This document shows, piece by piece, positions 25,601 to 58,100 of a stretch of 64,000 bases of DNA (positions within the stretch are counted from its first letter, which is position 1; every line of letters begins with the position of its first letter). This stretch comes from Bolinopsis microptera (Eukaryota; Ctenophora; Tentaculata; Lobata; Bolinopsidae), in NCBI RefSeq assembly GCF_026151205.1, contig NC_087073.1, positions 8,657,411-8,721,410 of the forward strand. The letters run 5' to 3'. The notes beneath the pieces are model-generated. The model made no database searches and had not been told where the DNA came from. It saw only the letters and a list, made by a program, of their open reading frames with translations. A program made the translations under genes and the position numbers.

Positions 25601-28600
25601 ACGCTGCCCAATTAGCAGAGTTAGTCCACTAACTGCCAACTGGTTCAGGTGGTAGCACAGTACGAGAAAGCAGTAATATTGAGACTGGGATGTATCAGAA
25701 AGGGTGGAGCAGCAGGACCTGGTCTCTTCTTCTTCCTGCCTTGTGTAGATGAGATTCACGTTGTGGACATGAGAACCATTTCATTTGATGTTCCCCCACA
25801 AGAGGTAAATATGGTATACAAGTATAGGGCGCACGTCGGGGTGGGGGGGGGGGGGGTGATCAGTGATTATTTCATATTCGGTCATTCTCTTCGAGCTCAC
25901 ACAAAAGTGGTTGTCATTGCTTTTGGTAATTTGGGGTTGATTTAATAAAATTACACACAAGCTGCACAGTATTCAATTAGGCTGAAATCTTTGCAGGAAC
26001 ATTCGAGTATATTATAGTAATAGTAGTAGTTATAGTAGTAGTCACTAGTCGGATATATTCTTTATAATAGTAGTTATTGACTACTATTACTAGTGGGTAC
26101 TTGGTATCTACAATAATGTCGCTGATAAATCTGTCTATCCAGATTCTGACAAAGGACAGTGTAACAGTGACAGTTGATGCAGTCGTCTACTTCCGTATCC
26201 AGGACGCCGTCTCCTCCGTCTGTAACGTGGACAATGTCAAGACTGCCACCAGATTGCTTGCACAGACCACCCTCAGGTCGGTGGTGTGACTTCTTTAATC
26301 TTTCACTATCAATGAAACTAATTATATTTATACAATATTTTATGTCTTTTAGGATAAAACAACATCTAAAACCCTCTTTTACAGTTTTACTGTTTCAGGA
26401 ACATGTTGGGAACCAAATCTCTGTCCGAGATTCTATCAGAGAGAGAGGAGATTTCCAACAGTATGCAGGTACAAGTTCAGAGCCTGTTACAGAGGCCCTT
26501 TTACACACCCTGTCACCCTCACACAGCGTGGCGCTGTCACACACTCTGTCACACACTCTGTCACACATATTTCACTGTCACACACCCTGACAGACCCCTG
26601 TCACACACCCTGTCACACACTCTGTCACACACTCTGTCACACATATTTCACTGTCACACACCCTGTCACACACTCTGTCACACATATTTCACTGTCACAC
26701 ACCCTGTCACACACACTGTCATACATATTTCACTGTCACACACCCTGTCACACACACTGTCACACATATTTCACTGTCACACAGCCTGTCACCTTGCCAA
26801 TTCCAATCACACTTGTATTTCACATTAATAAGACTAGAGTGTACAGCCATCCCACTATACTTGTACTGCTACGTTACTCACAAAATTCTTATATTTAATC
26901 TATATATAAATTAAGTGTGTACTGTGTAGTAATATTTATATTATGTCACATTTTGGACTTGCGTATTTAAACATAGTACTATAGTAATGTAAGAACAAAG
27001 CTTAGAGACCAACTTTTATTGTATACTACATAGTCTCGTATCGTTATTATAGGTCTACCCAGCCCTGCCCTAGTCCCTACTAATGAGTACTAATTAGCCC
27101 TAATTAGTCCCTACTAAACTGTCTTGTCCGCCAGATAATATTCTAAAGTCCAATAGCATTCCTAATCACTAGACGGTTCCTTCATTCATTTAAACAGTAT
27201 ATGTAGGGGAAATATTTAAAAAGCTAATCCCAACCCTGGTAGAAATATGACCAGCTAGCTTGGCTCTCCTGACAATATATTATTAGTATAACAAGAACAC
27301 TTGTTTTCAAGATCACTTTTCTAATTGAACTCAGTTAGTAAGTCATTTGAAAGCCGACAGAGGGTATATAAACGATATGCTCTGATGAGTGATGACTGGC
27401 TACCGATTTAGGAGGGCGGTTCGGTTTATTTCTAGGCTACAATATGCCGCTAAAGAGTCTTGTGAGGATACAATACGCTGAGTTTCTGCCCTATGGTCTA
27501 TTACTCTTATTCTAATGATGTGGTTATGTCGATAATGTATCGATCAATCCGATTCGAGACTAAATCTTCTAGTTGTGAGCATGAAAACCTTCTCTGTTAC
27601 ACATAGAATGATTCTGATGTAATGATAGAGTGTAGTAGAATGATTCTGATGAGGTGTGACTCATGCTCTCAATATTACTTCTAGAAGTGTATTTATTCGG
27701 AGTGGTCTCCCAACACAATAGGTCTCGTTCCAGAGAAGTTCCACGAACTCTCCCCCACCTGATTTGGAATAATTATTGTGGGCGTTACAGCTTACAGACT
27801 GACAAGTTTCGGTATTAATAATCTCATTATGCCTCCCCTTTACAAGATAACCTGACAAGAAACTCTCGCCTATTTAGTAGATATTTAAAGCAAAATATGT
27901 TCATAGACATTGGATTGACGTGGCCTTAAATACTAAATAAAGCTAAAGGTGGAGCTCCCACTGTAAATTTAACTGCACATTGCACTTGTATAATTACACG
28001 GACCCCTTCACAAGGTTCGCTGCACTTGTACTGTGGTAAATGTTATTATAACAGTTGTAAAATTGAGGAAGTACCCTATTATTACAATTAGGACATGTTC
28101 CTCTGTAAGTAAAGCTTAGGAAACTTGTTAATTGTTTTAACAGACAATTGAATTGTCTCTTATATACAGAACCATACTAGCTAGCCTAGCTAGGCAGTAG
28201 GTATCAAACTTGTTCTTATATAATTACTTTCTGATCATTGATCATACGCATTAATCACTTGCCTCATTCGTCATCTCCAGAGCCAAACAACGGTATCACC
28301 ATGCACATCACCCTGTCATACACCCCAATTTCACAGAAACATCACACTAATTTAACTGGATGTGAGGTGAAGGTATGAGGTTGATACTGTCTAACTGACT
28401 AAAATTTGATAGAAAATAAGTGAGCTAAGTGTGACGTTTTTCTAATCCATTTCAGCGTATTCTTGACGTAGCGACGGACCCCTGGGGCGTTCTGGTAGAG
28501 CGAGTTGAAGTGTGAGTTTTAATGTAAATAGCACTCTTATCTTCATCTGATAGTTTAATGTTTCAGCAAACTCTTGATGTGGCGACCGATCCATGGGGTG

Positions 28601-32162: not shown

Positions 32163-32996
32163 CAACCGTCGGCCTCGGCTCTCTAATCACTTTTAAGCAG
32201 CTTGTCAACCAGGGGCCAATCAGTGACGTGAACTGCCCTTCTGTTTGTCAGGATTAATTAAATACCTTTCTTACCTGTGCTAGACATTAACTTTTACAGG
32301 GATCCTAACTGGTTAATTGTCACATACCAATGAGAGCAAGCAGTTTTTATTAAAAAGGATTTTATTGTGTCTTAAAATGGGCCTGATTAATAAAAGAAAT
32401 CGTTCTGCCTAATTTGTTCTCAAATAGACATAGCTAATATATTAGACATGTGTCTATGTAGAATATTTCCACCAACCCAGTGGTATAACATACTATACCC
32501 TGCTACCCTCGCTATCTGAACTACTTTGAAGCAGCCGAAGGCTTCAAGTCCAATAATCCACTTTTTTCTCTTTCGTCGTGATTATCGACGAAATTTAACT
32601 TCTTTCGGACTTCGTTTTCAGACTTTTTTTTTTGTTGGGGACTGGCCCGTGGTACCAGCCAATGTTTACTCAAAAAAGTATATATAATATCAATGGTAAT
32701 AAGAAATTCATCCCCGTGGGGCACATGCATAAATATAAAATGTAAAGGAAATCTCAAACTATTCAATTTAGACTCTACCGGTAAAGTATGCAATGAAGGT
32801 TTATAGCTTAAAGTTTTATTTTCCAATGGTTAATAGGTAAAGATAAGAAAAGTAAAACAAGACTGAGCACTTCAAATTTGTAGAATTTGTAACTTGATTT
32901 GAAATCGCGGCGATAAAAAAGAATGTCCTATGTTGGCAGTGTAATTTATGAGATATGCGACGTTTATTGAGTGATGCATAAGTGTGTGCATATAAT

Positions 32997-35900
32997 CTAA
33001 GATGTAGAGACAAGGTTATTATCGGCATTTTGGTTTATGTTACGCTTTGATTTTCTTAGTCCTGTTATACAATATAACATGAAATTAGGCCAATCGTCTT
33101 CGATGTTTTCATTTTGCTGATCGATGAGCATAGTTTTTATACAAGTTTTGTAAATGTTCAGGTTAAATAGACTAGGCGGGGAAGTTGCTGCAACATTATA
33201 TCGGTTTATTGCTAATAATGGACCTTTAAAAAATACTGAGTTGTTGTAAGGGTGTTGACCATACTTTTCTGACCATTGTGTAGTGAGAATAGAATCCAGG
33301 TTAGTATTAAATAATGGTGCGCTTTTGGGAATTGTTTTCTTGAGAGACAATGGTACTAGATGAGGAAAGTTTTTCAATTTATGCATTAAAATGAGTGCGT
33401 TCTTTACAATGATACTGTGTACTGTCAATATTTTATGTGAATAAAAGCCAGACTTGGTACTTGCTGGGGGGATACCGTCCTTGTACCAGTAATTGACGAA
33501 ACCAGGTAATACTGCTCGAAGGCCCATTTTCTGTTTTACAAAAAGCGATTCAATATGAGACTTGGCAGCAAAACCCCATACAAGGCTGCAATAATTAAGG
33601 TGTGACTGCACAAAACTTTGATAAATTTGAAGACGTGCTTCGAGAGGCAGATATTTTTTAAGTTTGTACATGACTCCTATGTATCTGGACATTTTCATTT
33701 TCATGGCAGAAATATGATGGGACCAGTTTAGTTTATCATCTATTATAACTCCTAAAAAACGGGCTTCTGTTTTTCTCTCAATTGTGACACCAGAAATTGC
33801 CACATCACGATAATTAAGATTTCTTTGTCGAGAGAAGATCATATAATTTGTTTTCTTAAGGTTGAGAGCTAAACCATTATTATCTACCCATTTAACTAAA
33901 GCATCGCTAAGAGTTATTAGTTTATCGTAAACTTCATTAAGATTTTCTCCTATCAGGAAGATGTTGGCATCATCTGCGTACATAATGAAATTGGCTATAT
34001 CTGATATTTGAGGCAGGTCGTTTATGTAGATTATAAAAAGTAAAGGTCCTAATATTGACCCTTGAGGCACGCCGTATAAAATTTGGTTGGTTGAAGATTT
34101 TGACGAGCCAATTGATACAAACTGTTTCCTGTTAGTGAGATATGACTTAAACCAGTTTAAGGCTTGACCCCTTATGCCGTAATGGTCCAGCTTGCGCAAG
34201 AGTATGGAATGATCCACAAGGTCGAAAGCTTTGCTGAAATCGATTAAAAGAAGTAAAGTTACCTGCTTTTTAGACATTGAATTAAGAATGGTGTCTTTTG
34301 CGTTGAGAAGAGCATGTTCACAAGACCTACCCGGGCGAAAACCGTATTGGTTTTCACATAGTATGCTGTATTTATCTAAAAAACTTATAACTCGGTTATG
34401 CATTAGCTTTTCAAATACTTTAGAGAAAGAAGCAAGAAGAGATATTGGTCTGTAATTTTTTATGTCAGATTTAGATCCACCTTTGTGAATTGGGACCACC
34501 TTCGCTTCTTTCAAAGCCTGTGGAAAGATCCCCTGTTCAAAAGAACTGTTGACAACGTGGGCTAGTACACTAGTAAAACTGGGACAGCTGTTAGCGATTT
34601 TTAGAGGTTCAATTTTAGTGTCTAGTGTGGCTTTATTCTTAAGCAGGTTTATGACGTCCTGAATTTCTGTGGCAGTGACTGGCTTTAAGTAAATACTACT
34701 TGGAGTGGCGTTGCGAAGTGTGCTATGGGTTCCACCAGGATCAAAAGTGGTCCTACTACTAATTTCAGACTTAATTTTAGGAGCGATGTTTGAGAAGTAA
34801 TCGTTAAATTTTTCTGCTACAGCTGCCGGAGTGCTGATTGAGCCGTCTTCGTCAGTCAGTTTAATTGAAGTAGGTTTAGATTTTTTCCTATTAAGAAGAC
34901 TGTTTATCATTTGCCACTGCTTCTTAGAATTTTCTTTGTTTTGCTCAAAAAATTTTTTGAAGTGCTTGTTTTTAGCTTTATCGATGTGTTTATTACAAAA
35001 CTTCTTCAGACGGTCATATTTACTGCGGTTACTATCAGATGGTTCCTTAACAAAATCATAATATGACTCATTTTTACGTTCTATAGCTTCTTCGAGCCAG
35101 GGCAGCATCCATGGTTTCGGATTAACACGTTCATTTTGTCTTCGTGATTGTCTTTTTGTGGGATAGGCGGACTCGTAAATCTTATTATAAGCCGTATTTA
35201 AATTATTGAACTGTTCGTTGGCATCATTGGTATTGTTAAAAATTTCTGACCAACTTTCATCTGTAATTAAGTCTCTGAATTTTTGATTGTTGGTGTCGTT
35301 AAATCTACGTGTTTCAGTTTGAGATACATTTTGTGAGTTAGACGCAGAGCGGTAGCTGCTGGTTGGCGTGTTATCAAGATTTATTGTAGTGACTATTGCT
35401 AAGTGATCAGACATATCTGTCGTTAAGACGTTACAGCTTATTGTATCCTCAAGATTGTTTGTGTAGATGTGGTCAATAAGCGTGGCACTATGGTCCGTTA
35501 GGCGAGTTGGGCGTGATACAATTTGAATAAAACCGTAAGAGGACGCAATATCTATAATGTTCTGACATGCTTGGTCGCTGCTGTGCTTCAGTAAATCAAG
35601 GTTGAAATCTCCATGAAGCGTCATATGTTTACGGGTGTGTCTCCCTAGGTTGTGCAGCGTATTTTTGAAAATTTCTAGAAACGCTTCAGGTCTCCTAGCG
35701 GGAGAACGGTAAACATTGCCAATTATTTTCGTTCTGTTGTATCCTTTGCACTGATGGAGCTTGATAAATTGAAATTCGCCACTAGTATTAGTTGGTTCAG
35801 GGTTTGGAGTGAAAATATCAATTTTATCATAATCGACTACACGTTTGTGTACATAAGTGGCTAGCCCCCCACCTTTTCCAGATGGGCGAATTGGATCCTG

Positions 35901-36470
35901 GATAAATGGTTCATGAAATCCATCTAAGGTAACGTCGTTTATTCCGTTCGGTAATTTCCCTAAAGTGCAATTAGTTTCGTTAAAACACAATATATCATAC
36001 TTATCATAAGTCTCAATATCATCACGTAGTTGATCTATATTCTTAATAAGGGATCTTATGTTCATAGAAAATGTTTTAAGTTGAGAGCAGGTAGATTTTT
36101 TCACGTTACGTTGTTGTTTATACTGACAACTAGTTAGGAAAGATGAAATATTGCTCCAAGTTGAATCTTGATGCTCTTCGTTGGTCATGGCGTCGCCAAT
36201 AAGATTAAATCGACTATTCTGATCGTACGGATTAAATATGTCACTATTAAGTTTACTGTAGTCGTCATAGATTTCATAGTAGGTTGCGTGAAATCCAGGA
36301 ATGATACTTTCACAGCAACTCGTACAGCCTAAATTATCCTTAAAACATTTGACATGGACATTACTTTGACACCATGAGCATGTGCGAATATTTCTAATAG
36401 AGTAACACCAGCCGCTGCAGCTTGAACATTTGATCTTGACTTTATTTTCAGATGTAACAGTGGGTTCCAT
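32997..36470 (-). CDS. LINE ORF2: PHD finger, EEP endonuclease, reverse transcriptase, 1157 aa
   Basis: An uninterrupted 1157-residue frame with an ATG. Residues 15-55 form a PHD-like Cys/His finger (CSSCSGWCYSI...CSWC...HVKCF...CTSCC). Residues about 130-360 are an endonuclease of the EEP/AP type: SMNIRSL, FNETNC, HGDFNLDLL, SDHLAIV. The reverse transcriptase covers about 610-880: VVPIHKGGSKSDIKNYRPIS, FRPGRSCEHAL, LIDFSKAFDLVDH, GVPQGSILGPLLF and the catalytic YADD near residue 830. The usual RT tail follows, with LNYCSLVWG. The protein nicks target DNA and copies its own RNA at the nick (target-primed reverse transcription). No stop or frame break is present, so this copy may be young. Confidence 0.96.
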   Translation of the reverse strand: MEPTVTSENKVKIKCSSCSGWCYSIRNIRTCSWCQSNVHVKCFKDNLGCTSCCESIIPGFHATYYEIYDDYSKLNSDIFNPYDQNSRFNLIGDAMTNEEHQDSTWSNISSFLTSCQYKQQRNVKKSTCSQLKTFSMNIRSLIKNIDQLRDDIETYDKYDILCFNETNCTLGKLPNGINDVTLDGFHEPFIQDPIRPSGKGGGLATYVHKRVVDYDKIDIFTPNPEPTNTSGEFQFIKLHQCKGYNRTKIIGNVYRSPARRPEAFLEIFKNTLHNLGRHTRKHMTLHGDFNLDLLKHSSDQACQNIIDIASSYGFIQIVSRPTRLTDHSATLIDHIYTNNLEDTISCNVLTTDMSDHLAIVTTINLDNTPTSSYRSASNSQNVSQTETRRFNDTNNQKFRDLITDESWSEIFNNTNDANEQFNNLNTAYNKIYESAYPTKRQSRRQNERVNPKPWMLPWLEEAIERKNESYYDFVKEPSDSNRSKYDRLKKFCNKHIDKAKNKHFKKFFEQNKENSKKQWQMINSLLNRKKSKPTSIKLTDEDGSISTPAAVAEKFNDYFSNIAPKIKSEISSRTTFDPGGTHSTLRNATPSSIYLKPVTATEIQDVINLLKNKATLDTKIEPLKIANSCPSFTSVLAHVVNSSFEQGIFPQALKEAKVVPIHKGGSKSDIKNYRPISLLASFSKVFEKLMHNRVISFLDKYSILCENQYGFRPGRSCEHALLNAKDTILNSMSKKQVTLLLLIDFSKAFDLVDHSILLRKLDHYGIRGQALNWFKSYLTNRKQFVSIGSSKSSTNQILYGVPQGSILGPLLFIIYINDLPQISDIANFIMYADDANIFLIGENLNEVYDKLITLSDALVKWVDNNGLALNLKKTNYMIFSRQRNLNYRDVAISGVTIERKTEARFLGVIIDDKLNWSHHISAMKMKMSRYIGVMYKLKKYLPLEARLQIYQSFVQSHLNYCSLVWGFAAKSHIESLFVKQKMGLRAVLPGFVNYWYKDGIPPASTKSGFYSHKILTVHSIIVKNALILMHKLKNFPHLVPLSLKKTIPKSAPLFNTNLDSILTTQWSEKYGQHPYNNSVFFKGPLLAINRYNVAATSPPSLFNLNIYKTCIKTMLIDQQNENIEDDWPNFMLYCITGLRKSKRNINQNADNNLVSTS

Positions 36471-37112
36471 TTATAACTAAATATTATGATTATGATACTG
36501 ATAGTATATAAAACTATAGTTCAAATCAGATTCTTTCACGAGAACCGGAGGTCCTGTATGCTACAGAATCGTGATATGATTTAAAAGTAAATTATATTAT
36601 TTTAAGCTAAAATCGGATAATTAAGTGAAATAAAGTGTCCTTATCTAGGGCCTTATCAGTATGATTTAAATAACTGATTTGGCTAAAAAATAGAAATCGA
36701 ATAAAGTGGTTGCTTTTGTGTTGTGTAGTTTTGTGAGGTGTTATTTGTATTTGATTTGTTTGTAGCGTTTACGTAATAAGGGACTATCGCACTGAACTTG
36801 AGTAATACTGAAGAGAACGCACTTGATTATTTATAGATTTGTATGTGAATTTTGAATGTTGTATAGAGTTATGAAATCTCATTGATTTAGGATGATACAG
36901 ATTTGTAGAGTAAGATGTTTTGTGTGCGATCGGGTGATAAGAGATACTGATAATGAATGAGCTTATCAGATAATGAGAAAAATTCCACCAATCAGATCAT
37001 TTCATTATAATATGATCTATCTTGGTAACGATCTGTTAAAGGTGGACTGGAAGTTGAGAAAAAAGTGAATCGCATTTTTTAATCAGAATGGTATCAATGA
37101 TTTGTAAAGCGC
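36471..37112. other. Spacer between the two LINE-region ORFs
   Basis: 640 bases without a coding frame. This is long for a gap between LINE ORFs. It may be an internal untranslated spacer, decay, or the border between two units. Confidence 0.5.
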
Positions 37113-38297
37113 TCAGCTTCGGTTATATCTGGAGAGACTGTTAGGCTTGTGGTGATAGAGCCACTCACAGTTCCTGTGACGTCTCTGTTCAGATCCACAT
37201 AACTTGCCAACGCAGTTAACAAGTTCATGTGCCACTACCCTTTGCACCTCGTGATATAAGTGGATGCCATGTCTGTCGTTGCGGTCCCATACGTAGTATG
37301 AGTTAGCACGCTTGATCACGGCATGGGCATCGAAAAAACTCAGATTTGGAATATCCTTAGCCAGGTTCAACATTATGATATTAAAAGCGTCAATCTCTGC
37401 ATTCAACCAGTTAAATTTAGTCATAGATAAAGCACAAAACATAAACTCGGTATTCTTGTTATTGTTACAAGAGTCTATAAAACGGGGACAGAAATTGTCC
37501 GCAAGACTCCTGGCCGACTGCCCATACCTAGCTAGGTCATTAATGCCGCAGGAAAGTACGACTGCTTTAGAATGTTTGAACTCATGTTGATGTTCCAGTG
37601 AGTTCACTAGTTGATAGTTAAGGCGCTTTTGACATCGGTGGCCAGGTATCTGGTCGAACAGCCATTCTGGCGTTTCTCGGTGTATTGAGTCGTGAATTAA
37701 GAGGACTCTGGAGTGACGGGACGCTGGTGACTGTACCTGTGTAGGTGGTGCAACAGGCGGGACCCGAGTAGGGGCTGCAGGTGCTGGTAAGGCCGTGGGA
37801 TCAGGCTGTTTCAACTTGCGAAGAGTGAGCGAGATTCGTGGCTGCCTTAACATAGGATCACGTTCAATGCCGTGCTGCCAGTGGTTCTGATCAGATCGAG
37901 ACATTGCAAAGACAGAGCCGTGCTCAAGCGGGATGTTATGCTCAACGAAAGGGCCTGTCGACGTTGACATTCTCATAATTCTGGTAGAGCCAAATGATGC
38001 AGTGTAAATCAGACTATCTTCAACAATGCTGGATTCGCTGTCACTATGCAATGGAATACCAACTGACCCGTCCTTATAGTAAGTACAGAGGCAGGTATAG
38101 TTCGTGGGAGTAAAGTCAGGATCGGATTCATGCAAACAATCAAAAATGCGCTTTAGGACAGGTGGCAAGGGCTTATCATGGGTTGCACGGTGGTTGGTTC
38201 TGCCATAACTGTAAGGTACCGAGCCAAAATATGACTGAACTGTAGTATGAAGGATTATCTCTCGAATGATCAAGACTCCATAGGAAACTGACCCTCA
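37113..38297 (-). CDS. AlkB-like 2OG-Fe(II) dioxygenase fused to SGNH esterase, probable LINE ORF1
   Basis: The frame opens just after an in-frame stop and has no early ATG; numbering here starts at the TTG at 38273. Residues about 15-155 form an AlkB domain: SYFGSVPYSYG, NYTCLCTYYKDG, the iron ligands HSD (H76, D78) and H134 (QHGIE), SFGSTR, and the 2-oxoglutarate arginine pair in RISLTLR. A Pro/Ala-rich linker (160-185) joins a GDSL/SGNH domain: LLIHDSIHR with Ser196, CGIND (G243, N245) and DRHGIHL with His338. AlkB proteins remove alkyl groups, including methyl marks, from nucleic acid bases. SGNH esterases are known in the ORF1 of CR1/L2 LINEs. The GC content is visibly higher than in ORF2. 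Being upstream on the same strand and carrying a LINE-type esterase argue for ORF1; a captured host gene is the alternative. Confidence 0.85.
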
Positions 38298-52100: not shown

Positions 52101-55100
52101 CCTATCTTATCATAAATAATTAACTGTAACTAAATGTTTCAGATCCTGGCCTACAAAGAGACAGGTACGTACATCATGAAGGCAGCGGAGGAGATTTCGC
52201 AGCTTCTTGACGATCACATCGTGATGACCCAATCCATGTCGTTCTCACCCTACAAGAAGCCGTTTGAGAACCGCATCATGAACTGGGAGAGCAAGTTGAG
52301 GATGACACAGGATGTGATGGAGGAGTGGGCTACCTGCCAGAGAGCCTGGCTGTATCTGGAGCCTATCTTCTCCTCTGAAGATATCAACCGGTATGTTAAG
52401 CAGTTATTTCTAACACTGAACATCGTAACCTTCTCTCTGCCAACATTTTATTTTATATGTAAGTATTTTGGAGTAAGCTGATAATGGTATGATATGGTGC
52501 ACTGTGACCACTTTTTCCCCTTTTCAGACAACTGCCAGTTGAGAGCAAACGTTACCAAACAATGGACCGAATGTGGCGCAAGATGATGGCAATGGCTGCA
52601 AACAATCCCAACGTTATTACATTCTGTCCAGACGCTAGACTCCTTGAGAACTTCAGGGAATGTAACAAGCTTCTGGAACAAGTCCAGAAGGGTCTCAGTG
52701 AGTATCTGGAGACGAAGAGAGCTTCATTCCCCAGATTCTACTTCTTGTCTGATGATGAACTCCTCGAGATCCTGTCTCAAACCAAGGATCCAACTGCTGT
52801 ACAACCTCATCTCAGAAAGTGCTTCGAAGCTATTGCCAAAGTATGTGATTATAATGAATTATTACATATTTACAAAACACGAAGTATAACATGAGAATAG
52901 GTGATATAATAAGGATTGAAAAACAACAAAATTTTGTTGCAGCATCGCTCAGAATCTAACAAATACTTGTCTCAGCTTACTTTCCAAGAAGATCTCAAGA
53001 TCACAGCGATGCACAGTATGGACGGAGAAAGTGTTCCGTTCTCTGAAACTCTGTACCCAACTGGTAACGTAGAGGATTGGTTGCTGGAGGTGGAGCGGGT
53101 TATGAGGCAGAGCATCTTAGAGTCCGTCAAACTCTCTGTAGAGGATTATCCTAGGGTAAGGGATAGATTGTCTTCAAATACTGCTTCGATCTAATTAATT
53201 TAATTAATTGTTTGAAGATTCAACTTTCAACATGGCCTATTTATCTTGTACGCTCAGAACTAATGCTGATCCCTTAGAACAATCCTCAGACCGCTCGAAC
53301 AGAATGGGTGTTGAACTGGCCAGGTCAAGTAGTAATCGCTGGGTGTCAGATCTTCTGGACCAAGGAGGTGACGGAAGCTATTGAGGGTAATGATCTCCCG
53401 GGGTACTATGACAAGCTAATGGACCAGCTGGCCGACTTAGTGAACCTTGTTCGAGGAAACTTGAGTGCTATTTGTAGAGCGGTTATGTCTGCCCTTATTG
53501 TGGTGGAGGTAAGACTAAATCATGTGACCTAAAATTAAATAAACAATTCTACTTACTCATTTGATTTGTTCTAATGATGGGGGGGTCCAACCCGATGTCC
53601 GATATGAGGGTTGATGAGGCCAAAATCGGAATCGGAAAAATCGGAAAAATCGGAAAATTGAGAAATTTTAGAGAATCGATCTCTAAAACCTCTCAGAAGT
53701 GAGGAAGTGATAAAAAACCCCTACATATGCTATATTGTTATGAGAAAACGAACTAATTAGACATTCCAATAGTATGTTTTATGTGTTTTTCCACTGCAGG
53801 GGCTAGTATGCTCACTACTAGTTGGAGTTGTTATGTACTCCCAGACCCGAGTGCTTTGGCCTCTTGACGTGAGATCGATTGTTTCTGCTCATTAATTTTA
53901 TCCCTGTTACTTGTTATTATGTATTAGTACAACACTAGGGTTATATTTTGTGGTCCGGTCTTTAAACATACCATAATATCACTAGTACACTGCACCTTAA
54001 ATGTATAGTCAAGTACATTTGTATCGTAACACATGCTTGGCTGGGGGATCATGTTTTGTGTCCGTTCGGTACCCTGTATTTTCAAAACGGACAAAAAGTA
54101 GGGCGGACAAAAACAGACAAAACATTTAGATGTCCTCCTCCTCCTCCTCCTAAGTCTTCCTCCTCCTGAGTCCTTCTCCTCCTCAGTCCTCTTCAGTCCT
54201 CTTCCTGACTCCTCGTCCTCGTCCTCGTCCTTCTCCTCAGTCCTCCTCACCCTCCTCCTCAATCCCCTTCTCCTCCTCAGTCCTACTCCCAGTCCTCCTC
54301 CTTCTCCTTCTCCTTCTCCTTCTCCTCCTCCTCATCCTCATTTCTCCTCCTGATCCTCCTTCTCCTCCCCATCAGTTCTCCTTAGTCCTCCTCATAGTCG
54401 TCCTCCTCCTCCTGAGTCCTTCTCATCCTCCTCCACCTCCTGAGTCCTCCTCCTGAGTCCTCATCCTCCTCCTCAGTCATCATCCTCTTCCTCCTGAGTC
54501 CTCCCCCAGTCCTCCTCCTCCTTCTCCTCCTCATCCTCCTCCTCCTTCTCCTCCTCATCAGTCCTCATCCTCTGTCCTCCTCATAATCGTCCTCGTCCTC
54601 ATCCTCGTCCTTAGTCCTCCTCCTCCTTATCCTCCTCCTCAGTCCTCCCCCAGTCCTAATCCTCCTCCTTCTCCTCCTCCTCCTACTCCTCCTCATCCTT
54701 CTCCTCTTTCTTCTCCTCCTAATCATTCCTCCTCCTCAATCGTCCTCCGCCTCCTCCTCGTCCTTAGTCCTCGTCCTCTTCAGTATTCCTCCTCAGTCCT
54801 CCTCAGTCCTCATCCTCCTCATCCTCCTCCTCCTCCTCAGTCCTCCTCCTCATCCTCCTCCTCCTTCTCCTCTTCCTTCTCCTCCTAATCAGTCCTCCTC
54901 CTCAGTCGTCCTCCTCCTCTTCATTAGCCCTTGTCCTCATCCTCCTAGTCCTCGTCCTTAGTCCTCGTCCTCATCCTCCTCAGTCTTCCTCCTCAGTCCT
55001 CATCAGTCTCATCGTCCTCATCCTCCTCCCCAAGTCCTCCTCTTCCTCAGTCCTCCCCCAGTCCTCCTTCTCATCCTCCTCATCCTCTTCAGTCGTCATC

Positions 55101-58100
55101 TTGTTCCTCCTCAGTACTCCTCTTCCTCCTACTCGTCAGTCCTCCTCCTCCTCCTTCTCCTCAGTCCTCCTCCTCCGCAGTCCTTCTCCTCCTCGTCAGT
55201 CCTCCTCCTCGCCAGTCCTCCTTCTCCTTCTTCTCCTCCTACTCCTAAGTCCTCCTCCTCCTCCTCAGTCCTCCTCCTCCCTCTCATCCTTTTCCTCCTT
55301 CTCCTCCTTCTCCTCCTACTCCTAAGTCATCCTCCTGCTCCTCAGTCCTCCCCCAGTCCTCCTCCTCATCAGTCCTCTCCCAGTCCTCCTTCTCCTCCTC
55401 CTCATCCTCAGTCCTCCTCCTCATCATCCTCCTCAGTCCTCCTCCTCCTCAGTCCTCCCTAAGTCCTTCTCTTCCTCAGTCCTCCCTAGTCCTCCTTCTC
55501 CTCCTCCTCATCCTCAGTCCTCCTCCTCATCCTCAGTCCTCCTCCTCAGTCCTCCTCGTCCTTAGTCCTCCCCCAGTCCTCCTTCTCCTCATCCTCAGTC
55601 CTCCTCCTCAGTCCTCGTCCTTCTCCTTTTTAACAGTCCTCCTCCTCAGTCTTCCTCCTCGTCCTCGCTCTCGTCCTCCTCCTTCTCGTCTTCCTCCACA
55701 CCAATCCTGCTCCTCTTCCTCAGTCCTCCCTCTCCTCTTCAGTCCTCCTCCTCCTCAGTCCTCCTCTTTCTCCTCAGTCTTCCTCCTTTTCCTCCTCCTC
55801 CTCATTTCTCTTCCTCATCCTCCTCCTCCTCCTTCTTCTCTTCCTTCTCCTCCTAATCAGTCCTCCTCCTAATCAGTCCTCCTCCTCAGTCGTCCTCCTC
55901 CTCGTCCTTAGTCCTCGTCCTCATCGTCCTTAGTCCTCGTCCTCATCCTCCTAGTCCTCGTCCTCATCCTCCTAGTGCTCGTCCTGGTCCTCCTCAGTCT
56001 TCCTCCTCTGTCCTCCTCAGTCCTCCTTCTCCTCAGTCCTCCTCCTCCTCTTCCTCATCAGTTTACACAATTTATTGTTACTAAAATGTTTTTAAACGCA
56101 TTTGAGTCTGTAACATATTGACATGTTACTGTTACTGACTCAAAATGTGCCCGAGAATTTTTTTGTTTAACAGAGTTTTACTCTCCAGTACTATGGAAAA
56201 GTTGTTACATGATAAATAAAGATTTTGATAAATAAAGTGATTTTCATCCCTTTTAATGTTATTGAAAATTGTGTAGACTATTCTTTGTATCTAACTGAGG
56301 ATTGGAAGTTTGAGAAAGGACCATAGTCATTAACCGTGCTACCCATTTCTGCAGATAGCCTGTTACAAATTGTGGAGACAATTTAAATCAAAAGTTACTA
56401 AAGCGTTCGCTATTTGTTACGATTGTTATTACCAACCGTACCTCTTTCAATTGTGGACCGGGGTGGATGTTCATGTCAAACAAGAGTTGGTACGACATTG
56501 TGTTGTTTTTCGGACGAAACGATTCTTGTTTAGAACAAGATACCATTTTGGGGTTCTGGGACCACCACCAATCGATTTCTTGTCATATCTAAGTACAGAA
56601 ATAGCTACCTATATCGCCTAGAAACCTCAGAGGGAAGATTTAAATTTTCCCGATTTTTCCGATATGAGGGTTGATGAGGCCAAAATCGGGATCGGAATGA
56701 TCGGAATTGATCGGGTTGGACCCCCCCCCCCCCCCCCCCCCCCCAATGATAAAACAGTTGATATTTGAGGGTTTAAGATATTTAATAACTACACCCCAGG
56801 TGCACGCACGTGACGTCACTGCAAACCTGATTGAAGTGGGAGTAAAGAATCTGAACGATTTCGAGTGGATCCAGCAGATGAGGTACTACTGGGACGAGGA
56901 GCTGTTGAGTAGAGTAGTGAACAGTGAGTTTAAGTACGGGTACGAGTACCTGGGTAACAGTGGTCGTCTCGTCATTACTCCTCTTACTGACAGGTTAGAC
57001 CTAGCTTTAACGCTCTACGTTGGCAATTATTGCAATCTTTGTTAAGTATTTGTGAGAATCCTTGGATTTATTAAAGATAATACATGTTGCAAATTTGTAA
57101 TTAAGAGTTTTACTTACACACTTTTTGTAATGATGAAAGCATCCATGATATGGCGTAGTTCATAGTTGGTGGTATAATGTACATATTATCTTGACATGTT
57201 GCACATTCCAGATGTTATCTGACGCTCTGTGGAGCACTTCACTTAAAGTTCGGAGGAGCACCTGCCGGTCCTGCTGGTACTGGAAAAACAGAAACTACCA
57301 AGGATCTTGCTAAAGCTCTGGCCTACCAGTGTGTTGTGTTCAACTGTTCTGATCAGCTTGATTTCATGGCTATGGGCAAGTTCTTCAAGGGATTGGCATC
57401 TGCTGGTGCCTGGGCATGTTTCGACGAGTTCAACAGAATTGACATTGAGGTGTTGTCAGTGGTGGCTCAACAGATAACAACCATTCAGAAAGCACAGATA
57501 CAGAAGGTAATTGGGTTTCAAAAAGAGAATCAATTCAAAATAATACATTAATATAATGGTAGCTGAGATTATTGGCTAGTACTGTGGCAAATTATTGGTT
57601 CATCGAGCGAGGTCAGAGTAAGCCGATGTTAAAAGATCTTTCACTAATCTTTTATAATTAATCAAATCCATTTTCTTCCTGACAACGTTCCCTTTGCAGT
57701 TGGAGAGGTTCATGTTTGAGGGCGTGGAGATTGTGTTGAAAGCATCTTGTTCTGTGTTCATTACAATGAACCCTGGTTACGCTGGCAGAACTGAACTTCC
57801 TGACAATCTTAAGGTTTGACATTTGGCATTATGATTAAAGTACGAAACTTCATATAAGAAAACACAGTAATAATACTATATATTTAATTAGAAGATTCTG
57901 GAATTATGAAACTAACCATTTAAGACTAAGTAAAGTATGGGAAAATTAAAGGAATTATTCTCTCAGTTAGAAATATGATATTTTCTCAGGCTCTGTTCAG
58001 ACCAGTCGCTATGATGGTGCCGGACTACGCTATGATTGCTGAAATTTCGCTGTTTTCCTTCGGGTTTTCAGATGCGAAGGTCCTTTCCAAGAAGATCACT

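Follow-up and report, generated by a model that had tools for sequence, protein, structure and literature searches.

Some plant RNA viruses are RNA-based replicons that carry an AlkB domain of their own, in the context of the viral replicase. AlkB in a retrotransposon is also already known, from the Tat/Ogre-like Ty3/gypsy elements of orchids, for which the accessible part of the study describes an ALKBH5-like m6A demethylase (PMC9289625). Among LINEs, the closest described system is ZfL2-1 of zebrafish, a CR1/L2 element with an esterase-type (type IV) ORF1 (PMC3905857; PMC4120745). As far as the accessible text of these two articles goes, elements of the ZfL2-1 type have two ORFs, of which ORF1 encodes a protein (ORF1p) with a predicted coiled coil and a C-terminal SGNH hydrolase, and ORF2 encodes an endonuclease (EN) and a reverse transcriptase (RT); a PHD-type finger is present in some type-IV lineages of CR1/L2. 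The domains given for ORF1 in a 2014 survey of the Jockey superfamily are RRM, CCHC, PHD, esterase, CTD, coiled-coil, and zf/lz (PMC4120745), and neither article mentions AlkB. In the open PMC literature, as represented by titles and abstract openings, no LINE with AlkB was reported; an earlier mention may exist in subscription papers or in Repbase. The element described here shares this architecture, with a PHD/C1-like finger read by eye, and differs from the ZfL2-1 type in the AlkB domain that lies ahead of the esterase. It also differs from the orchid elements, which are plant LTR retrotransposons with an ALKBH5-like domain, whereas the AlkB domain of the present LINE is of ALKBH2/3-like type and is joined to an SGNH hydrolase.

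The window, that is, the whole 64-kb stretch of DNA analysed, contains a minus-strand frame at 37113-38294 that is open from stop to stop (393 aa); all parts of the element given below lie on the same strand. The initial annotation had read this frame as an AlkB-type domain fused to an SGNH esterase, and the motifs that it named (HSD, QHGIE, RISLTLR, HDS, GIND, and GIHL) were all present. The AlkB (2OG-Fe(II) oxygenase) domain (37809-38234), cut at its N-terminal edge, matched PF13532 (2OG-FeII_Oxy_2) with an E value of 1.1e-19 and 71.9 bits against a cut-off of 31.2, and its closest solved structures were human ALKBH3 (8.7e-16) and ALKBH2 (3e-11). In the transposon AlkBs, the Pfam match covers positions 54-194 of 194 and the first quarter of the profile is absent, a difference from ALKBH2 and ALKBH3. 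Within the domain, HSD (38040-38048) provides the first two iron ligands (HxD), the histidine of QHGIE (37872-37874) the third, and RISLTLR (37818-37838) the 2OG-binding R-x5-R; each of the 16 ORF1 proteins in the alignment retains the three iron ligands and both arginines. A proline-rich linker (37719-37808), corresponding to low pLDDT at residues 369-392 in the model of a homologue (P0001), leads to the SGNH hydrolase domain (37170-37718). The same 16 proteins all retained the nucleophile serine of block I (DS, 37686-37691) and the oxyanion asparagine of block III (GIND, 37536-37547), and 15 retained the catalytic histidine (37260-37262) of block V (RHGIHL). The aspartate of the DxxH motif, three residues before this histidine, was found in two of the 16 and is a histidine in the window copy; thus, esterase activity is doubtful in the family of the window element. 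The Lipase_GDSL_2 match (5.2e-4) is below the Pfam cut-off. When this part was modelled alone by AlphaFold (pLDDT 89), Foldseek retrieved GDSL esterases and PAF-AH (best E 3.5e-7), which supports an SGNH hydrolase fold.

The window frame is, however, the remnant of a longer ORF1, a point that the initial annotation had missed. A protein search returned 15 homologues, 11 of them with 511-634 residues; P0001 (593 aa) is 92% identical. In tblastn of the 15 homologues against the window, homology ended at about 38234 (P0001 residue 221), and nothing in the 64 kb matched the first third of this protein. At the DNA level, homology to a full copy from the same genome starts at 38240. The frame of the element thus begins only at about 38234 and, because the copy is 5'-truncated, the first 20 residues of the 393 (38235-38294), which have no ORF1 homology, are in-frame flanking DNA. 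This copy has no start codon ahead of its AlkB domain, so that only a remnant of ORF1 is left, in contrast to the intact ORF1 of other copies. An acceptor-like CAG immediately 5' of 38234, together with a database fragment (P0139) that ends at the same residue, had suggested an intron; intact single-frame copies in the same genome and the absence of the N-terminal part from the window favour truncation instead.

Downstream of ORF1, a 642-bp spacer (36471-37112), whose predicted RNA folding was unremarkable (z -1.62), is followed on the same strand by ORF2 (32997-36470), an open frame of 1157 aa. Of the PHD-EN-RT composition initially assigned to ORF2, the APE-type endonuclease (35403-36065; PF03372, 6.9e-7) and the reverse transcriptase (33741-34472; RVT_1, PF00078, 1.8e-36) were recognized by Pfam; in place of a PHD domain, for which Pfam made no call in the window ORF2, a C4HC3 zinc finger of PHD/C1-like type was read by eye at the ORF2 start (36315-36428). 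A relative (P0021) gave a weak C1/PHD-type Pfam call, as did the ORF2s of two further groups. The relatives of ORF2 included a Mnemiopsis leidyi protein (55%), and the genome is likely that of a ctenophore. The 3'UTR (32624-32996) ends in CCCCAAC and a run of A. Its limit was set by 39 other 3'UTR matches, among the best-scored of 394 candidates, which stopped at positions 367-381 of the 551-base query and hence within 15 bases of each other, a common 3' end. The window copy therefore spans 32624-38234, with its 5' limit from protein homology, and comprises the 3' part of ORF1, the spacer, ORF2, and the 3'UTR with its A tail. A repeat of 7 bp (CTGAACT) that abuts the 5' junction was considered as a target-site duplication; it would imply a 3' end at 32522 and was taken as a chance match, because the 3'UTR search places the end of the element at about 32624. 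Elsewhere in the window, we noted a 1.9-kb, strongly C-skewed tandem array rich in (TCC)n (54133-56062) and a 41-bp tandem repeat of the CTGTCACACACC type (26534-26792).

In the window alone, with AlkB and LINE on the same strand, 642 bp apart, and no start codon, the frame could be taken for a host gene beside, or overrun by, an unrelated LINE. We addressed its membership in the element in the genome assembly that includes the window (264.65 Mb, 232 contigs), where searches scored the best candidates only and all counts are lower bounds. The ORF1 part had at least 42 DNA matches, of which 14, the window included, covered the whole query at 98-100% identity. Thirty of the 42 loci were retrieved with 1.5-kb flanks, 19 of family A and 11 of family B, the latter matching the query at about 72-73%. 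A same-strand ORF2 followed ORF1 in 28 of the 30; the two loci lacking it (L017 and L019) both had a broken ORF1, and one further locus (L012) had an internal deletion in ORF2. Conversely, the first 500 bp of ORF2 gave at least 40 matches (the best 40 of 66 candidates), and ORF1 lay upstream in 20 of the 30 loci retrieved. In the other 10, homology started past ORF1, either in the spacer (eight) or inside ORF2 (two), as 5' truncation would give. When aligned with L004, 12 of the 18 other family-A loci shared its 5' end, about 90 bp ahead of the ORF1 start codon, and the remaining six began later. Intact ORF1s of 589-599 aa were encoded by 10 of 19 loci in family A and 7 of 11 in family B, and six family-A copies differed by only 1-7 bases over the 1767-bp ORF1, which indicates recent movement of this family. 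No clear target-site duplication was seen in nine copies inspected; the long shared flank of L006 is a tandem repeat of the target and so proves none. In the oriented loci L004-L016 (at about 715-790), the 5' ends of the element also differ in how many short repeats of the AATCATTTTACTACTTTCATTACG kind they contain.

The two families were further compared for selection. When intact copies of family A were paired with those of family B (70 pairs), dN/dS was 0.087 for AlkB and 0.074 for SGNH, and the N-terminal region gave 0.295, values that are approximate with dS saturated; they indicate purifying selection on both domains between the families. Within families, AlkB ratios of 0.40 (A) and 0.785 (B), each based on few differences, revealed no clear constraint.

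These results indicated that the AlkB-SGNH protein is encoded by the retrotransposon itself as its ORF1, as initially proposed, because it is multi-copy, has a fixed order and spacing relative to ORF2, shares common ends, and is under purifying selection between families; this conclusion is strongly supported. Since related copies in the same genome carry AlkB too, the domain looks like a working part of the element rather than a neighbouring host gene. An ORF2 with EN and RT, dispersed near-identical copies, frequent 5' truncation, and a common 3' end are the hallmarks of a LINE. Thus, the window frame almost certainly represents the 3' part of an ORF1 that belongs to a LINE with recent activity, CR1/L2-like by its architecture.

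AlkB-bearing elements also proved to be abundant and diverse in this genome, which the initial annotation had not recognized. A genome search with the PF13532 profile gave at least 151 matches (with the best 150 of 587 candidates scored), and those listed grouped as repeated open frames, among them frames of about 551, 593, 611, 646, 676, 707, and 778 aa, with some in giant frames of 2225-3388 aa. With the AlkB of a giant frame as query, at least 150 matches (the best 150 of 731 candidates) were obtained, adding groups of about 537, 630, and 697 aa. Pooling the two 150-match listings with 17 matches of the ORF1 DNA search gave at least 265 distinct AlkB places, host genes and some fragments included. 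We read one member each of the 551, 611, 646, 676, and 707 groups, in stretches that exclude the RT part of ORF2, and all five had an ORF1 with AlkB followed by a same-strand ORF2. AlkB was Pfam-supported in every one of these ORF1s; a GDSL match below the cut-off was present in four, and the SGNH domain of the 707 group was read by eye, as was the DxxH motif, which is kept in all five groups. EN was called in the three ORF2s scanned (551, 676, and 707), that of the 676 group at only 0.0035, below the cut-off. Weak PHD matches lay near the ORF1 start in the 676 and 707 groups. A 222-aa frame (L081, C2:1946700-1947500), which contains AlkB and the first part of an SGNH block (ILIGDSN), is a fragment of the 676-aa group, to which it is nearly identical in the AlkB tree.

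Compared with family A, the N-terminal part of ORF2 in the five groups was 22-25% identical where alignable, and therefore the lineages are old. The ORF2s of the 611 and 646 groups were 46-47% identical to that of the 551 group. Between the 611 and 646 members themselves (L083, C3:20037800-20041400; L084, C1:9139900-9143600), DNA identity over ORF1 was about 51-77% (blocks of 150 columns); starting about 18 bp ahead of the ORF2 frame, it was 97-99%. Two distinct AlkB-SGNH ORF1s here precede one ORF2, which looks like a swap of the ORF1 module. The giant frames (C10:16875843, C3:14441692, C12:8338315, C9:15868177, C12:2469580, and C9:11092850) form a separate observation; in a 1-kb piece of one of them (L087), tandem repeats of about 23 residues each come after AlkB.

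The origin of the transposon AlkB was addressed with trees. Among the PF13532 matches listed, locus L078 encodes a 234-aa protein for which human ALKBH2 is the closest relative of solved structure (3.9e-60); this is a separate gene, the ALKBH2 of the host itself. In a first AlkB tree, 21 LINE-type rows and a giant frame were split from the host side with support of 98/93, and L079 and L080 clustered with the host rows; in a second, from which the giant frame, the 676-group row, the 222-aa fragment, and L080 were removed, 19 transposon rows were split at 97/95. A tree against ALKBH1-8, FTO, and viral AlkB had been proposed initially; the reference set used here comprised three local host, two human, and two viral rows, with ALKBH1, ALKBH4-8, and FTO absent, and the proteins P0002-P0139 were classed as transposon by architecture only, without genomic context. 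The AlkBs of two viral contigs lay on the host side together with ALKBH2/3, and the transposon rows, judged against these few references, did not group with host ALKBH2/3 as orthologues would. The transposon AlkBs thus form a single clade, separate from the ALKBH2/3-like genes of the host, and one capture followed by long residence is the simplest reading. They also read RxSLTxR where ALKBH2/ALKBH3 read RxNLTxR. The two viral AlkBs (L001 and L002, on contigs of 578 kb and 29 kb) have the RISLTFR form of the 2OG motif as in the LINE AlkBs, yet fall on the host side; they are distant, and the viral contig collection contained no relative of ORF2. No AlkB relative was found in the genome contig collection (genome_contigs). 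With the multiple copies, their fixed order and common ends, the separate host ALKBH2 gene, and the distinct transposon clade, a host gene next to an unrelated LINE is now extremely improbable; single-copy, spliced status and copies of the LINE lacking the ORF, which that explanation predicts, are contradicted.

The fold of the full-length protein bears on its function. The AlphaFold model of P0001 (pLDDT 72) has a disordered start, short helices, and a helix at 90-163, followed by AlkB and SGNH; the N-terminal region is helical and probably a coiled coil. Foldseek ranked ALKBH3 and ALKBH2 at the top (best E 4.2e-14), and the domain combines the double-stranded beta-helix of the AlkB family with HxD...H and R-x5-R. 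A family profile matched ALKBH3 (8e-23), ALKBH2 (4e-21), NMAD-1 (2e-5), and ALKBH8 (0.02), and no other AlkB-family chain, ALKBH5 and FTO included, up to an E value of 0.1. In sequence and in fold, ALKBH2 and ALKBH3 are therefore the best matches. Pfam found no RRM or CCHC domain in ORF1, and esterase-type ORF1ps are described, in the accessible text, without structural RNA-binding domains (PMC3905857); AlkB might thus serve mainly as an RNA-binding platform, with catalysis secondary. We consider such a structural use very unlikely, since the iron and 2OG ligands are kept in every aligned ORF1 protein and, by eye, in six further transposon AlkBs.

We proposed that the full ORF1p, with its helical N-terminal region, ALKBH2/3-like dioxygenase, and C-terminal SGNH hydrolase, would package the element RNA; ORF2 encodes the zinc finger-EN-RT protein. 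Its AlkB would oxidatively strip methyl groups from the base-pairing face (m1A and m3C type), lesions that would otherwise stop the element's own reverse transcriptase, and their clearing would give longer cDNA. The SGNH domain may tie the RNP to lipid membranes, by analogy with what has been suggested for ZfL2-1 (PMC3905857; PMC4120745). We give the whole explanation, the LINE ORF1 identity together with template demethylation, a probability of about 0.5; demethylation of the template with membrane tethering, taken as a mechanism, has slightly less than an even chance.

The closeness to ALKBH2/3 makes m1A/m3C-type lesions likelier targets than m6A. An eraser of m6A or another regulatory mark, keeping host readers or decay factors off the RNA, has a precedent in the orchid ALKBH5-like domain, reported in the accessible text as active in vitro (PMC9289625); that domain is unlike the LINE AlkB, for which the profile reached ALKBH2/3 and no ALKBH5 or FTO chain. 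In human cells, moreover, METTL3 favours and ALKBH5 suppresses L1, according to the accessible part of that study (PMC7873242), so that erasing m6A need not help a LINE, and we regard this role as unlikely. The same relationship to ALKBH2/3, and the match to NMAD-1, deposited as a DNA 6mA demethylase, would also suit a repair of single-stranded DNA that is alkylated or marked with 6mA, be it in newly made cDNA or where the target is nicked. Indeed, ALKBH2-type enzymes act mainly on DNA, and a DNA substrate would therefore fit too. Action on DNA is nevertheless rather improbable, since AlkB resides in ORF1p, the protein described as packaging the RNA (PMC3905857), and not in the EN-RT protein that handles the target DNA.

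Returning to template demethylation, we tentatively suggest, at somewhat below even odds, that AlkB-SGNH ORF1 has long served LINEs as an exchangeable module for clearing RT-blocking methyl lesions from the template RNA, captured once, carried by several deeply diverged lineages, swapped at the ORF1/ORF2 junction, and perhaps taken up by a giant-polyprotein element. If so, methylation of the template RNA would really limit retrotransposition, and hundreds of parasite-encoded demethylases would be present in one animal genome. ORF1 proteins are viewed mainly as RNA packagers; template repair by ORF1p, if true, would represent a new function, with RNA methylation (m1A, m3C, and m6A) becoming testable as a limit on reverse transcription in the cell. 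The LINE AlkB is an animal counterpart to the AlkB of the orchid LTR elements and provides a large set of naturally diverged AlkB enzymes. With at least 265 AlkB places in the genome, counts of host ALKBH genes in these animals could err if transposon ORFs are annotated as genes.
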